IMG/VR virus record: IMGVR_UViG_3300048079_000052
Coordinates: 1-42,335 of that record
Direction: 5' to 3' (one strand)
DNA: 42,335 nt
Source: a virus
A program made the translations under genes and the position numbers. The notes under the pieces are model-generated. The model ran no database searches, was not told the origin of the DNA, and saw only the letters and a program-made list of their open reading frames with translations. Each line of letters opens with the position of its first letter. Positions within the stretch are counted from its first letter, which is position 1. Shown here piece by piece: positions 6,785 to 38,263 of this stretch.

Positions 6785-6921
6785 GTCGTCCCGCTATTCG
6801 CTCGACCTACTGGCCTCGGCAAAAAAAGAGAGAGCTCCAATGGGGAACGAAACCAAAACAAGAGTTCTTACCATTCGGCTGGACCCAACTCTTGGCATGT
6901 TATGCGATAGGGTCGCAGTAG
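6775..6921 (+). CDS. Possible 48-residue leader peptide
   Basis: ATG 6775 is preceded by an excellent ribosome site (AGAGGAG, two to three bases away) and the frame is open to TAG 6919-6921, overlapping the start of the rightward RHH gene in another frame. The peptide is basic (YWPRQKKRELQWGTKPKQ). It could couple translation into the RHH gene, or be chance: if the weak promoter at 6758 is used, transcription would begin after this ATG. Confidence 0.3.
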   Translation: MSDSRPAIRSTYWPRQKKRELQWGTKPKQEFLPFGWTQLLACYAIGSQ

Positions 6922-7112
6922 AACGAGGAGCGGCCGATTTGTCTGATTACATTCGTGGACTGCTGATCGCAGATGCGATTGCTTTGGGACACGTTCTTGT
7001 TGGAATTGAGGTCCCTAGCTGGGTGGTTGGCACAGTTCTGGATGTCCAGGGGAAAGTACCGGCCAGCGATGAGCTCAGGCGGATCAAAACACAAACAAAA
7101 AGATACGGATAA
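6840..7112 (+). CDS. Ribbon-helix-helix regulator upstream of the integrase
   Basis: Protein of 90 residues. Beta-ribbon segment TRVLTIRLD, then helices GMLCDRVAVERGA and DLSDYIRGLLIADAIA, the usual RHH arrangement. The last third (LVGIEVPSWVVGTVLD) is unassigned. The stop lies one base before the integrase ATG, so the two are cotranscribed. Divergent from the RHH gene at 6674, sharing the operator region; likely part of the lysogeny/integration control. Confidence 0.7.
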   Translation: MGNETKTRVLTIRLDPTLGMLCDRVAVERGAADLSDYIRGLLIADAIALGHVLVGIEVPSWVVGTVLDVQGKVPASDELRRIKTQTKRYG

Positions 7113-7113
7113 A

Positions 7114-8238
7114 ATGACCCACCCTCGCGGCATTTTCGAGAGACCACCAAATTCAAATGTCTGGTGGGTCAACTATTTCGAGCATGGCCGACGTCACCGC
7201 GAGCGCGTCGGCCCTCGCTCCCTGGCCATTGCCGTCTATCAGAAACGCAAAACCGAGATCCGCGAGGGGCATTTCTTCCCTCCCGGTCCACGCCGCCATC
7301 TCACCCTGCAAACCCTTGCCGAGCAAGCCCTTAAAGCCAAAGAGCTCAGAAACACTCCGTACTCGGTGCGCATGGACCGCATCCGCCTCAAGCGCCTGCT
7401 CGAGCATTTCGGCAGCATCACCGCCGCCGGCCTCACCAGTGGGGCTATCGAGGAGTTTATGGGCAAGCTGGCCTCCGTGGGTCGCTCCGGGGCCACCCTC
7501 AACCAATACCGCTCCCTGCTGTCGAGTTTCTACACCTTTGGGCTTCGCACCGCCCTCGTCAGCGTCAATCCCGTCGCCCGCGTTCCTCGCGCTCGCGTTT
7601 CTCCCGGCCGGATTCGCTTCCTTGACGCCAAGGAAGAAGCCCGACTCCGCCGCACACTCGACCCGCTCCCCTTCCACTGCGAAGCCGAACTTGATCTCTC
7701 GCTCAATACTGGCCTCCGCCGCGGCGAGCAATTCGCCCTGCGCTGGGATAAGGTGGACTTAAAGCGCGGCCTCTTGACCGTCGCTCGCGGCAAAACCGGC
7801 CTGCGGCACATTCCGCTCAATTCCGCCGCGCGCCGTGCTCTGAGCGTTCTCCGCCGCTACACCGGCCAAACTCCGTTCGTCTGTCCTTACGCTCATGGTC
7901 AGTTGCGCGATTGGCGCCGCTGGTTTGAAGCTGCCGTTAGGCGGGCCAAGCTGACAGATTTCCACTGGCACGATCTCCGGCACACCTTCGCCTCGCGCCT
8001 GGTCATGGCCGGCGTGGACTTGGCCAGCGTTCAAGCTCTGCTCGGCCATAAGACTGTGCAGATGACGTTGCGCTACGCGCACCTGGCTCCGGCACATCTC
8101 AAACGCGCTGTAGATGCCCTGTGTGATGGCCTTTCTTCGCACAGGGGAGCGCGTCGAGCGACGATCTCCTCCCGCCAGGACTCAGCAGCCACCAAAACAG
8201 GCTCTAGACAGCTGGTGCCTCTTGCCAGAAATTGTTAA
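7114..8238 (+). CDS. int: Tyrosine recombinase integrase
   Basis: Protein of 374 residues from ATG 7114, one base after the RHH stop (longer readings overlap that gene). Residues about 80-165 are the SAM-like core-binding domain. Catalytic residues all present: Arg202 (TGLRRGE), Lys227 (ARGKTG), His286 and Arg289 (HDLRH), His312 (LLGHK), Tyr321 (LRYAHL). It should integrate the phage at a host tRNA-Leu gene, since a tRNA half starts 18 bp after its stop. Convergent with the lysis genes. Confidence 0.95.
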   Translation: MTHPRGIFERPPNSNVWWVNYFEHGRRHRERVGPRSLAIAVYQKRKTEIREGHFFPPGPRRHLTLQTLAEQALKAKELRNTPYSVRMDRIRLKRLLEHFGSITAAGLTSGAIEEFMGKLASVGRSGATLNQYRSLLSSFYTFGLRTALVSVNPVARVPRARVSPGRIRFLDAKEEARLRRTLDPLPFHCEAELDLSLNTGLRRGEQFALRWDKVDLKRGLLTVARGKTGLRHIPLNSAARRALSVLRRYTGQTPFVCPYAHGQLRDWRRWFEAAVRRAKLTDFHWHDLRHTFASRLVMAGVDLASVQALLGHKTVQMTLRYAHLAPAHLKRAVDALCDGLSSHRGARRATISSRQDSAATKTGSRQLVPLARNC

Positions 8239-8256
8239 CTCCTTTGTTTTCACAGT

Positions 8257-8295
8257 GCGGAAGTGGCGGAACTGGCAGACGCGCAGGACTTAGGA
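8257..8295 (+). tRNA. 5' half of tRNA-Leu (anticodon TAG): probable attP core
   Basis: The sequence matches a class II tRNA-Leu from its first base: acceptor strand GCGGAAG, D-arm GGCGGAACTGGCAGAC, anticodon stem CAGGA and loop CTTAGGA with anticodon TAG. The expected pairing 3' stem (TCCTG) is absent and no T-arm or acceptor complement follows, so the gene is only a half. It lies directly after int and is the natural crossover identity block. Integration would give a hybrid tRNA whose 5' half and upstream DNA come from the phage. Confidence 0.75.
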
Positions 8296-15800: not shown

Positions 15801-15880
15801 CCTCGGAATAGCATTATAAGGATGATACCGTAAAGTACTAAGGCTACGATGGCGCAAAGTGCCGTAAGGTATCTTTTCAT
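15797..15880 (-). CDS. 27-residue single-pass membrane peptide
   Basis: ATG 15880 overlaps the ejection-protein stop (ATGA), the same coupling used throughout this operon, and the frame ends at TAA 15799-15797. The peptide starts MKRY, has about 20 hydrophobic residues (ALCAIVALVLYGIILIMLF) and ends RG: a basic start, one membrane helix. Could be a small holin-like or late membrane peptide. Confidence 0.5.
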   Translation of the reverse strand: MKRYLTALCAIVALVLYGIILIMLFRG

Positions 15881-18800
15881 TGCGGTCTAATCCGGCTCAC
15901 GTTTTCTTCTTCGCGTAAGACCATCGCTGGCATCCGCAGTTCGCGGATTGACTTCCTCTTGGGTGCTTTCCCGAAGAGTTCTTCCTTGCGAATGATCTGA
16001 CTCTTGGCGTACTTCGTCGCATCGGTCCGTAGCTTTTCCAATACTTCTTTTCGGTTCTCCCAAGAAAGTGCCAAAAAAGATTTGTTCTCCATGAGCCGAG
16101 TCGCTTGCTCGTTGATGCGCTGACCGCGCAACCGCTCAAATTCTTGCCGCAGTGCTGGTGAGACTTCCTCTTCTGGAAGTGCGCCAATTGGTGTCCGTCG
16201 GGGGCGATACACGCCGAGGCCATGATCGAGAAACAACATCTCCACAGGATTCACCTGCCGGGCCAAGCCTGGGAACCCCAAGCCGCCAGAATAGGGAATG
16301 GTCTTGCCTCCAGGAAGAATCTGGCGTGTCTCTCTTGGTTTTCCAGTCGTCGGCTCAATCACCGGCTCCTTCGTAAGAGAAAGGACAGGCACATTCGCGC
16401 CGACGCCACGGCGCACCGTCGGATCAAGCATGGCTTCAATGGCTGCCAGCACGCCTTGGCCGGGAATCAGTCGGTTCACAAAGGAGATGAACTCATTGCC
16501 AAGATGTTCCATGCTGACCGCGCCGCGCACCAGTTGCTCACTGGCCTGCAAGATTGGCGCAAGCAATCCGTTGAGATGAACAAGTGGAAGAGAACTATGC
16601 TGCATCGCGCTCCAGAATTTAGGTAGGTCGCCTTTGATTAAGGCGACAAGTGCGAGTGCGTCTGGGATGGGCGTTAACCCCGTCAGCCGAATCCGGCTCC
16701 CATCCTCACGGCGATACTCCATGCTGTTGAAGTCCACGTTTGGGTAGATGGTTTCTGAAACCAGATAGACTCCACCTAGTCCGGTCGCGTTCCGCGTAGC
16801 GAAGCCTACAATATCGGCACCTGTTACGTTGCCGGATTTGACCTTGCCCCAGAAATCAGGACTGAGGGGCGTGTGCTCAGCGAGCCAGCGCGTGAATTGC
16901 ATACTCCATCGCGGATAGGCGTTGATGAAAACCTGAACAGTCCGTGAGCGGCCAATCTGCTCTTCGATGGCGGAGAGGTTGCGGTTGAATCCCAGACGGT
17001 TTCCCTGCTCGGCAGTTGCCGCAATCTCAGCATCTCCGACATCGAATACGTGCTGATCCACAAAGGCTGCTTTCTCGCGCCCTTTCAATCCTCGCAGTTT
17101 CGCTTGATTCAAGGTCCGTTCGTAGAGACTGGACATCGCTCCATAACGCTTGAAGAAGCTGTCCACGCCTGCTTTGGCATAGGCTGGGGCGAAGAGCAAC
17201 TTGTCAATGTTCCGCCCCGTCAGTGGCGCGAAGCGTTCGCCCAAAGCGGTGCTGCCAAGTTCTTGCTGAATGCGAATGGGCATCTCGCGCCAGGGTCGGC
17301 CCCGAATCGCTCGAAGCATCCCTGCGGTGCGCTTCCCGCCATCGTAGAGGTCTTGTGCGCCCGCCTCAATGATCCTACTGCCTAAAGCTCCAGCATTGGT
17401 AAGCAGGTCGCGGGCGGCGCTGAATAGGGGAAACAGATTGACGCGCACATAATCAATCGGTGCGGTCAGAAGCGGTTTGATTTGGCCGTTTTGCAACGCC
17501 TCGCGCACGGTTGCAATGAGCGGTTCACGATGGCCAACCTGTCGGATGCGCTTCATTCCAAGCCCTACCCGGGCCAATTCATCTAAGAGTTCCGCTTCCA
17601 CTGGATAGTCGAATGCCTTGACGGTGCGGCCCGCGGCGCGGCGGTACTTCCTGTATTCTTGGGCTAGAGCCTCAAACTGCACCTCGGCACTGCGAAGCTG
17701 CTGACGGGTGAGTGGGTCGGCAGTCAATTCGGCATCTCGGCGGATGCTCTTGAGTTGCCGAGCGAAATGCGTAACCGCTGCGTTGACTTGGCCGGTGCGT
17801 GCCTCAGAAACCAGCCTGGTAGGTTGCGGCGCACCTTTGGCTCGGATTCCAGGGCGCAATTCCTTTGCGAGTGTGCCGGTTGCCGCAATCGCCTCGCTTT
17901 CTTGCAGGATGGTTTGCGCTTCCCTAGAAAGCAAAGAAATCTGGTCGTCCATTGTCGAGATAACGTCATCGGCGAGCGCACCAATCTTACTCACAACTGC
18001 GGGCGGCGCGGTAGGCGGTTTGATTTTCTCGAATGGCCAGCGAATGATGCGCTTCCAAACGGCAGGGTCGAGAAAACCGAAACTGCCCGCTGCGGGACCC
18101 AGTCCCTGCTTTGGCACAGGCGGCTCAGGAGCCTTTGCTGCGGGGGTTTTGAATTTCCAGTATTGAACACGCTGGCTAGAACTAATCTGAACCCCTCCGG
18201 CCTTTGTGAATTCCTTCGGGTCAAACGAACCAGGCAGCATCTTTACAACTTCTCCGCGACCGTACTCCTTTGGGTCTCCAACGTAGACTCTGCCTTCCTG
18301 AAGATATACGTTTCCAACCAAGTTACCAGAAGAGTCGCGCAGTTCTCCTTTATAGGCTCCCTTTGGGAATCGGCGTTCAGCAACGCTAACTAAGTCCTTC
18401 CCTGTCATCTCCCACGGTTGCTTTGCTGTTGGCTCAGGAGCCTTGATCTTAGCAGGGATAGGCTCAGGGGGCTTGGCGGCTTCTGCGGGGCGGGGCGGGG
18501 CTACAGGCTCTATGGCGGTGCGTTCCTGCTTAATCCAGTTGCCTGCCGCTTCCAAGAGCCGTTCATAGACCGGCCCCTTGCCGCGCGCTAGAGCTGCTTC
18601 CATGTCTTTCGGGCTTTCGCGGACTTCCTTCAGCCAGGGGAAGTCTCCTCGGCGAGAAGTAATCCCGTACCATACACCTCCACGGCGCTCCCCTTGCCCG
18701 CGCTTCCGGCCTGCGAGTACTTGTTCTCCCTCGCCTGCTTCGGCAAAATATACACCTGGACGCTCCTGCGCTTTCAGAAAGTCCGCCGTCTCCATAATCA

Positions 18801-19842
18801 GGCCACGCGCTGAGTCAAGCTCTTCTGCTGTCAGTGGGGCTTCCAGCTTGGCGCGCTGCGCTGCTTGGATTCTGCCAAGTTCCTGCAAGGCTCGTGTTCT
18901 GGCCTCCGGTTCGATAGCAGAAACGGCTTTTTCGCCTGCTACGAGTCGCTGGCCCAGCGTTGGCTCGGCAGCTTTCGCGGCTTCGCGCGCGGCTCTTTCC
19001 CTAGCAAAGCGTTCCTCGAATGCAGCTTTCTCTCCAGCCTCACGCTTCTGAAGTTCTGGCAAGCGCCCGGCTGCCCGTTCCGTGCGTTCGGCCTGGTCTG
19101 CGGCAATGCGCGCTTCAATGGCTGCGCGGCGCTCCGGGCTGCGGGTTCTTTTCAGTTGCGCTTGTAGTTCAATGATTTCGGCATTGATGGCGTTTGACGT
19201 GCGGGGCGCCGCTGGCGGTAGAAGTTCGCTCGGTGTGGGCGCAACGGCGCGCTCGACGGCTTGTAGACCAGCCTCAATTCGTGGTGCCTGCGCTCGCTGC
19301 TCAAGGATGCGTTGGGCGGCTGCTTGCTTGGCTGGAATGGCTTTTGGCTTTCCGCCTACCAAGCCGCGACCTAGAAGCCCCAGAGTCGCAATATCAACTA
19401 CCCCTGCTCCTACGGCTCCCCACGGGTCAGTCTCAAACTGTTCGATTCTGGCTTTCGCCATCGGGCCTACAATCGGAATGGCCCCCGAAGGTTCCGTCGG
19501 GATTGGCCCAAGCATAGGGATTTCGCTGACCATGAACGGCTCGGCTGGATGGCTGACGAGTGCCCCGCCAATGTCCTTGAATTCTTGGATGGCCCCCCGA
19601 ACAAGTCCCAGTTTCTTCGGCGGTTCGGCTTTAAATTCAGCAACCGCTTCAGAAAAGGAGAACGTATCTTTGACTTCGTTGTTGGCGGTATCGAAAAAGC
19701 CTTTGGTGAGGTCGGTGCTCGCTGGCAGGCCATACTTTCTCTTGATGCTTTCCTGATCCTTTGCAACGACAGACCATTCATCATCGCTGGGCGGAGGTTG
19801 CCCGCGCCGCATGACTTCCCACGGATTTGCAGCCGCGCTCAT
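15877..19842 (-). CDS. Large internal virion / DNA ejection protein
   Basis: Protein of 1321 residues from ATG 19842 (ATGA overlap). Order: PWEVM start motif; helical linker; several Gly/Ala-rich possibly membrane-active segments (IPIVGPMAKA, WGAVGAGVVDIATLGLLGRG at about 150-175); a long Glu/Arg/Ala coiled coil (about 190-360); Pro/Lys linkers; and a C-terminal half with FPLFSAARDLLTNAG, FINAYPRWSMQFTRWLAEH and TLGLLG-like stretches, typical of large phage internal proteins of the P22 gp16/T7 core type. Expected to be ejected with the DNA and help cross the envelope. Confidence 0.75.
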   Translation of the reverse strand: MSAAANPWEVMRRGQPPPSDDEWSVVAKDQESIKRKYGLPASTDLTKGFFDTANNEVKDTFSFSEAVAEFKAEPPKKLGLVRGAIQEFKDIGGALVSHPAEPFMVSEIPMLGPIPTEPSGAIPIVGPMAKARIEQFETDPWGAVGAGVVDIATLGLLGRGLVGGKPKAIPAKQAAAQRILEQRAQAPRIEAGLQAVERAVAPTPSELLPPAAPRTSNAINAEIIELQAQLKRTRSPERRAAIEARIAADQAERTERAAGRLPELQKREAGEKAAFEERFARERAAREAAKAAEPTLGQRLVAGEKAVSAIEPEARTRALQELGRIQAAQRAKLEAPLTAEELDSARGLIMETADFLKAQERPGVYFAEAGEGEQVLAGRKRGQGERRGGVWYGITSRRGDFPWLKEVRESPKDMEAALARGKGPVYERLLEAAGNWIKQERTAIEPVAPPRPAEAAKPPEPIPAKIKAPEPTAKQPWEMTGKDLVSVAERRFPKGAYKGELRDSSGNLVGNVYLQEGRVYVGDPKEYGRGEVVKMLPGSFDPKEFTKAGGVQISSSQRVQYWKFKTPAAKAPEPPVPKQGLGPAAGSFGFLDPAVWKRIIRWPFEKIKPPTAPPAVVSKIGALADDVISTMDDQISLLSREAQTILQESEAIAATGTLAKELRPGIRAKGAPQPTRLVSEARTGQVNAAVTHFARQLKSIRRDAELTADPLTRQQLRSAEVQFEALAQEYRKYRRAAGRTVKAFDYPVEAELLDELARVGLGMKRIRQVGHREPLIATVREALQNGQIKPLLTAPIDYVRVNLFPLFSAARDLLTNAGALGSRIIEAGAQDLYDGGKRTAGMLRAIRGRPWREMPIRIQQELGSTALGERFAPLTGRNIDKLLFAPAYAKAGVDSFFKRYGAMSSLYERTLNQAKLRGLKGREKAAFVDQHVFDVGDAEIAATAEQGNRLGFNRNLSAIEEQIGRSRTVQVFINAYPRWSMQFTRWLAEHTPLSPDFWGKVKSGNVTGADIVGFATRNATGLGGVYLVSETIYPNVDFNSMEYRREDGSRIRLTGLTPIPDALALVALIKGDLPKFWSAMQHSSLPLVHLNGLLAPILQASEQLVRGAVSMEHLGNEFISFVNRLIPGQGVLAAIEAMLDPTVRRGVGANVPVLSLTKEPVIEPTTGKPRETRQILPGGKTIPYSGGLGFPGLARQVNPVEMLFLDHGLGVYRPRRTPIGALPEEEVSPALRQEFERLRGQRINEQATRLMENKSFLALSWENRKEVLEKLRTDATKYAKSQIIRKEELFGKAPKRKSIRELRMPAMVLREEENVSRIRPQ
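18458..18488. repeat. 31-bp repeat, copy 1 (other copy 22552-22582)
   Basis: Identical to 22552-22582, about 4.1 kb away in the same orientation. Recombination between the copies would delete the ejection genes and the GNAT gene, so its retention is notable. Confidence 0.75.
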
Positions 19843-21002
19843 CGCACCCGCACAGGCTTTCCCTTCTCTAGCTTCCAAACCTGGCCATTGTTGAATTGCA
19901 CTTCTTCGCCTTCTACTTTCAGTTGCGCCAGAGCGCGTGCGGGGAGTTGACCTTCTGCGGTTGTTGTTTTTCCGGTGCCGAAATGCTCGGCTACCATGTC
20001 CGCGGTGATCTCAAGATGCTCAACAGGCGATTCAGGGTCAATCTGCTCCAACTGGGCTTCAAAGTCGTCTTGAACTGCCTGCCAGCGACCACGGAATTCA
20101 TCTTCCGCCATCGGATTCGTCAATGTGCGCTGCTGGCGCTCAGTCATCAGCCGCTGCAAAAGCGTGCTCTTCTTGTTGGTGATTTGAGCCTTCGAGCGTG
20201 CCAGCGGAAGCCCGCCGCTACGCTCTTTTGCCGCAATTCTCTTTCTCTGTGCTTCCACTTCCGGCGACAACGGAACATCTACGCCTGGAATAGGCTTTCT
20301 CTTTTCTGTTTCCAGATTGTGCCGCTTGGTTTCGATGGCTTGTCGCATCTCCTTAGACTGGTTTGCAATTGCCTCCAAGCGCGGCACTAGTTCAGGACTG
20401 AATTGCTCCGGCCAATCTTCGGGTTTGATAAATCCTTGTTGGATGGCCGCTGCGCGCACACCTGGATATGCCTGGGGGTCTTGCAAGGCCATCCCGGCCA
20501 TGCTTCCCATGATGTCTAAGCGCTTCCCCGTGTTTTCGAGTTGCGTCTGGTCCAGATTGGCGATTGCATTGGCAAACTCCACCCGTTGCTTCTGCTGCGC
20601 CGCTTCCTGCGTTGCGAATTGCTGCTCTAGTTCGGGAACTTGATGCGGCGAGATTTCTTGCAGTTTGCTTAGAATTGCGCTTTGTGATGTGCGCGGCGCA
20701 CGAGGGGCCATTGGTGCTGCGCCTAGCCCTTCCAGCCCAGGAACGTCTTGCATCTGCCCTGTAGATGGCTCAAAGCCTGGTTGCGCTCCAGCCGCGAATG
20801 CTGTTCGCATCGCGCCTCGCTCTTGTGCAGTGCGTCGTAGCTCGGTGAGATTCAAGTTGGCTTCTTCTTCACGCAGACGCCCATAGCGTCGCTGGTCAGC
20901 CATCTGCTGAAGCTGGGCGAAGCGCATGAGGATTTCAGAAATGGACTCTGGCTCGCGCATCCCGCGTGTCGTGATTGAGGGGTCGGTGTAGAATTGCGGC
21001 AT
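19839..21002 (-). CDS. DNA ejection protein, coiled-coil type
   Basis: About 387 residues; ATG 21002 overlaps the upstream stop (TAATG). Mostly helical and Gln/Glu/Arg-rich (SEILMRFAQLQQMADQRRYG, VPELEQQFATQEAAQQKQR, ITADMVAEHF near the end). Lies between the gp7-like and the large ejection protein, as gp20 does in P22. No enzymatic motif. Confidence 0.65.
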   Translation of the reverse strand: MPQFYTDPSITTRGMREPESISEILMRFAQLQQMADQRRYGRLREEEANLNLTELRRTAQERGAMRTAFAAGAQPGFEPSTGQMQDVPGLEGLGAAPMAPRAPRTSQSAILSKLQEISPHQVPELEQQFATQEAAQQKQRVEFANAIANLDQTQLENTGKRLDIMGSMAGMALQDPQAYPGVRAAAIQQGFIKPEDWPEQFSPELVPRLEAIANQSKEMRQAIETKRHNLETEKRKPIPGVDVPLSPEVEAQRKRIAAKERSGGLPLARSKAQITNKKSTLLQRLMTERQQRTLTNPMAEDEFRGRWQAVQDDFEAQLEQIDPESPVEHLEITADMVAEHFGTGKTTTAEGQLPARALAQLKVEGEEVQFNNGQVWKLEKGKPVRVR

Positions 21003-37725: not shown

Positions 37726-38263
37726 TTAGCTCCACCTTATTGATGAAGAGTTTCAAATACTGCCCGAGTAATTCCAAGCTGCGCGCTTTGTCTGCGAGTT
37801 TGAACCGTGTCCGCATAACCCGCTTGCGTTCCCCGTCACCCGTCCCGCCAGTGGCGTCCACCGTGTATTCCTGGATCGCCGCAGCTTGCTCCCGCGTTAG
37901 GTTCGAGAAGTCCACCACGAACTGACCGTCCTCGTCCACGCGCATATAGTCCAGCATGTTGGAGAAACCCATCTTGCAAAGCTCTCGAAGGACTTTCTCA
38001 GCGTCAAAGTCTAATTTCTTTGCCTTTTCCGCCATGAGCTTGCCGATTTGCGCTTGTACACTACTCTTCCCTAACAGTAGCGCACCTCTTACGTCTGCGC
38101 CTTTTTTGCTGTAACCCGCTTTAATTGCAGCCTTTGTAGCATTCATGTCAATCACATAGGCTCGGCAAAATACTTCTTGGCGTCTTTTAGCGCTCTGCTT
38201 GCCGTTTGACGGAGCGATTTGTTGGGTGTCTGCCACAGTCTTAGACCGATGGGGCCTCAGCAC
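37652..38263 (-). CDS. Terminase small subunit
   Basis: Protein of 203 residues. The N-terminal DNA-binding region (FCRAYVIDMNATKAAIKAGY, then SVQAQIGKLMAEKAKKLDFD) is the Terminase_2 signature. C-terminal basic segment. Recognises the pac/cos site, which in P22-like phages lies within this gene. GTG start; overlaps both neighbours. Confidence 0.9.
   Translation of the reverse strand: MLRPHRSKTVADTQQIAPSNGKQSAKRRQEVFCRAYVIDMNATKAAIKAGYSKKGADVRGALLLGKSSVQAQIGKLMAEKAKKLDFDAEKVLRELCKMGFSNMLDYMRVDEDGQFVVDFSNLTREQAAAIQEYTVDATGGTGDGERKRVMRTRFKLADKARSLELLGQYLKLFINKVELSGDADILAALAAGRERVRSGKRAN

Follow-up and report, generated by a model that had tools for sequence, protein, structure and literature searches.

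Directly behind the integrase gene (int) of the window, by which we mean the whole 42,335-base viral record IMGVR_UViG_3300048079_000052, lies a 39-bp block that is almost certainly the attP core of a temperate Acidobacteriota phage integrating in reversed orientation into the tRNA-Leu(TAG) gene. The block and its identity were observed directly, as was the arrangement after integration, both in a collinear relative and in further elements occupying tRNA-Leu(TAG).

The 5' half of tRNA-Leu(TAG) behind int

Genes for terminase, portal, major head protein, connector, exonuclease and methyltransferase were recognised in the window by their PHROG matches, and the int product carried the Phage_integrase domain of tRNA-targeting tyrosine integrase systems. 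The int region was composed as follows:

6840..7112, + strand: ORF of 90 aa directly upstream of int, without Pfam or PHROG match
7114..8238, + strand: tyrosine integrase (int), 374 aa, TAA stop at 8238; PF00589, 5e-28; PHROG 1 integrase, 3.6e-61
8239..8256, + strand: spacer of 18 bp from the int stop to tRNA base 1, with no significant promoter match
8257..8295, + strand: almost certain attP core, made up of the first 39 bases of tRNA-Leu(TAG) (the 5' half, anticodon loop included); 39/39 identity to intact Acidobacteriota genes
8289..8295, + strand: CTTAGGA, the 7-nt anticodon loop and likely 7-bp strand-exchange overlap

The ATG of int was located 1 bp after the stop of the 90-aa ORF, and the two are probably on the same transcript; by position only, this ORF is a candidate regulator or excision factor. 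Elsewhere in the window, a minus-strand ORF of 1,333 aa (15877-19878) gave no PHROG match.

The earlier note had proposed that attP carries the 5' half of tRNA-Leu(TAG), 18 bp past the int stop and ending at the anticodon loop, and this was confirmed: the block matched positions 1-39 of the ARAGORN-intact tRNA-Leu(TAG) genes of Acidobacteriota contigs with no mismatches, and after the last base of the anticodon loop the host genes continued with TCCTG and the phage with GCTGA. The second-best ungapped match to the block within the window was only 23/39, which excludes chance. When the int side was joined in silico to the host 3' half, ARAGORN read a tRNA-Leu(TAG) 18 bp behind int, and no tRNA was read at the other junction. 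The attP core seen in the window itself adjoins int and repeats a stretch of a host tRNA gene exactly, this stretch being the 5' one, as in elements of reversed orientation.

According to the mechanism that we propose, the integrase would recombine the 39-bp core with the host tRNA-Leu(TAG) gene at its anticodon stem-loop, the strand exchange presumably taking place in the anticodon loop. The host 5' half with its own promoter region would be displaced to the far end of the prophage, and the phage 5' half joined to the host 3' half would give a sequence-perfect tRNA 18 bp behind int and on the same strand. Phage DNA would then drive transcription of the rebuilt tRNA, the likeliest routes being read-through from int or a site near the int 3' end. 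The exact match extends past a short recombination core, and was probably kept by selection for a working tRNA.

Phages integrating in tRNA genes are known to use lysogeny dependent on a phage tRNA, in which the host tRNA is broken by integration and a phage-borne equivalent takes its place (PMC10865867), but that system combines a short core, about 8-10 bp long, with a complete tRNA encoded by the phage. No complete tRNA was found in the window, and its core, 39 bp long, rebuilt a tRNA that ARAGORN read as perfect instead of failing to rebuild it, making this explanation extremely improbable.

A search suggested in the earlier note, for a bacterial tRNA-Leu(TAG) having these 39 bases followed by TCCTG, was successful. 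Among 84,980 species genomes, the host form (41 bases) was present in only 8 contigs, all of Acidobacteriota (one of them Acidipila) and each with an intact gene, and the genome behind each contig had a single copy of the 5' half at three or fewer mismatches. These results suggest that the host very probably belongs to Acidobacteriota. An integrated copy of the exact window phage was not found in the genomes scanned, so that its own attB and the host base upstream were not seen, which counts against the attP reading. An exact 35-mer scan of IMG/VR found the core in no other virus, and a scan with the integrase gave one distant match.

Integrated relatives and other elements at tRNA-Leu(TAG)

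The closest prophage, G581, was recovered by searching with the portal protein of the window. It is 37 kb long and lies in tRNA-Met(CAT), with an integrase 50% identical to that of the window over residues 5-339. The intact tRNA-Met(CAT) began 21 bp after its int stop, both being on one strand (the gap is 18 bp in the window), and 37 kb away on that strand, at 38200-38240, the first 41 bases of this tRNA were found again as a displaced copy, with identity reaching four bases beyond the anticodon loop. The G581 homologues of the exonuclease, portal, head protein, connector and tail region followed the window order when the window was closed at its ends and opened at attP, placing the int-side boundary of the prophage where the earlier note had put attP. 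The insertion of this closest collinear prophage in tRNA-Met(CAT), unlike the tRNA-Leu(TAG) of the window, was counted against integration of the window phage at tRNA-Leu(TAG). Another prophage, G458, with a portal 41% identical, was discarded as it provided no useful junction.

Of 399 genomes from the class to which Acidipila belongs, 69 contained the tRNA-Leu(TAG) 5' half with no more than three mismatches, and some of these had two copies of it. The reversed layout was present at this gene with four other integrases (G500, G437, G443 and G530) and a decayed one (G640). The earlier note had also suggested looking for prophages with the window integrase at this gene; the exact phage was not found there, but a related integrase was, that of G500, which is 47% identical, ends 64 bp upstream of the intact tRNA-Leu(TAG) and has the displaced half 20 kb away. 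In G437, a 12.3-kb prophage encoding terminase, major head protein, tape measure and int separated the displaced half from the intact gene, and both outer flanks matched the unoccupied locus L103 in order. The restored tRNA behind element DNA, which the earlier note had predicted behind int on phage DNA, and the displaced 5' fragment at the far end were thus seen directly in G581, G437 and G500, which are relatives and not this exact phage.

The int-to-tRNA gap was 7 bp in G443 and 9 bp in G530, and in G640 the decayed integrase ended about 8 bp before the intact gene; in these three genomes the displaced half and the intact gene were on different contigs, the intervening DNA being unseen. In G494 the native locus, which matched L087 and L088 at 84% over 2.5 kb, retained the displaced half, and the intact gene was 5.8 kb further on, with no complete integrase found; G512 and G626 had only displaced halves. 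In G500, G437, G494, G443, G530, G640, G512 and G626 the displaced copies diverged from the gene at, or no more than one base from, the end of the anticodon loop. In G626 (L083) a second tRNA-Leu-like match was seen about 180 bp past the displaced 5' half. When a broader profile was used, the integrase matches near tRNA-Leu(TAG) genes were without exception on the 5' side; the 3' side had none up to about 1.5 kb from the gene.

The G437 integrase ORF (L063, 14736-16073) continued into and through the restored tRNA, suggesting that the C-terminus of this integrase would change on integration; the tblastn matches of this protein at many tRNA loci were rejected as an artefact of this overlap. Remnants of related integrase C-termini preceded the displaced halves of G500 (L062) and G530 (L068), which suggests serial integration at the same tRNA gene. 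A 76-bp identity upstream of the tRNA in G500 had been considered as an att core reaching the promoter; this was rejected, since ahead of the displaced copy lies what is left of a related int tail (22 aa, 91% identical) and the identity is better read as serial integration.

The 39-nt block could instead be a decayed remnant or an acquired fragment without a role in integration. Fragments of tRNA genes do occur as remnants, as with a decayed 5' half at L078, but the exact 39/39 match, the place right behind int and the matching layout in integrated relatives, including the collinear G581, make this explanation very improbable.

Orientation in the integrase family and known systems

Among the best 30 relatives of the window integrase in a phylum-wide sample, 17 adjoined a tRNA, and 14 of these were of the 3'-half type, in agreement with the statement of the earlier note that the 3' half is usual in tRNA-targeting phages. 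The other three had a tRNA after int in the same orientation: tRNA-Arg(CCT) at L023, tRNA-Arg(CCG) at L031 and tRNA-Leu(TAG) at L033. The displaced half was not found within the DNA examined for L023 and L033, and G069 (tRNA-Leu(TAG)) and G015 (tRNA-Arg(CCT)), with int before a same-strand tRNA and the displaced half absent from the DNA examined, were not counted as proven. In a tree of 35 integrases, the nearest row to the window was G500, likewise at tRNA-Leu(TAG), and the integrases of G443, G530 and G437 belonged to a group distant from it. The reversed label required at least three changes on well-supported branches, so that switching orientation looks evolutionarily easy.

It is known that recombination can take place at the 5' part of tRNA genes, less often than at the 3' part (PMC6563490), and the title of Zhao & Williams 2002, as cited there, refers to a reversal of the usual tRNA/tmRNA target orientation. 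Of 3,919 islands in Islander, 159 have a 5' fragment and 3,760 a 3' fragment (PMC4383910). The reversed arrangement is therefore already published and rare, and the window phage is a well-documented further case. As in the reversed-orientation tRNA/tmRNA elements, the 5' part of the gene would be displaced and a new one supplied by the element; in contrast to them, the elements described here belong to Acidobacteriota phages, and several integrases use one tRNA gene in this orientation. In the literature searched we found no earlier description of reversed orientation in Acidobacteriota phages, and nothing relevant on attP of Acidobacteriota prophages.

The archaeal pTN3-like integrases also have the 5' half of a tRNA gene as attB, with the integrase promoter described as driving expression of the recombinant tRNA (PMC8371274). 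However, the pTN3 int is split by integration, whereas the window int is intact and ends 18 bp before the tRNA. Mycobacteriophages integrate by means of a 3'-half core of 30-45 bp, reconstructing the tRNA and commonly using the anticodon loop (PMC10865867); the core length and the tRNA reconstruction are alike in the window, but the tRNA half is the opposite one, and the host promoter is kept in the mycobacteriophage case. The elements described here provide a clear multi-genome example of the rare reversed integration in a poorly studied phylum, with at least two distant integrase families sharing one target tRNA gene, and make testable the expression of a host tRNA once its promoter has been displaced.

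Promoter-like motifs upstream of the intact and displaced copies

Scoring by the sigma-70 consensus only, and with small counts, indicated that native tRNA copies often had TATACT or TAGAAT 9-20 nt upstream. The displaced halves of G494, G443, G640, G512 and G626 kept such native promoter-like motifs, suggesting that the native promoter is probably stranded with the displaced fragment and that the intact copies would then depend on phage DNA. It is conceivable, if unlikely, that the prophage takes over transcription of the host tRNA altogether, with the int transcript or a phage promoter as its sole source. The tRNA-Leu supply would in that case be tied to prophage regulation, loss of the int region of the prophage would be harmful, and the repeated, serial 5'-side integrations at tRNA-Leu(TAG) in Acidobacteriota could be explained.

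Upstream of the tRNA half of the window, the best -35/-10 match was 8/12, a score reached by 20% of the shuffles, and a stricter -10/-35 scan found no promoter. The int-adjacent copies of G500 and G530 likewise had no promoter match better than chance. Expression after integration is thus left unexplained by a recognised promoter upstream of the window block, a point counted against the attP reading; the lack of a match fits read-through from int, which the earlier note had suggested as cotranscription, without proving it. These results also weigh against a variant of the attP reading in which the restored tRNA would have its own promoter in, or just before, the int 3' end, independent of int transcription. 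We tentatively regard this variant as a real possibility, because in one further integrase family a promoter-like motif lies within the int 3' end, a TACAAT box and, at 17 bp, a -35-like hexamer being common to the int tails of G443 (L066), the displaced locus of G530 (L068) and L092, and because the intact copy of G494 had TATAAT 9 bp upstream.
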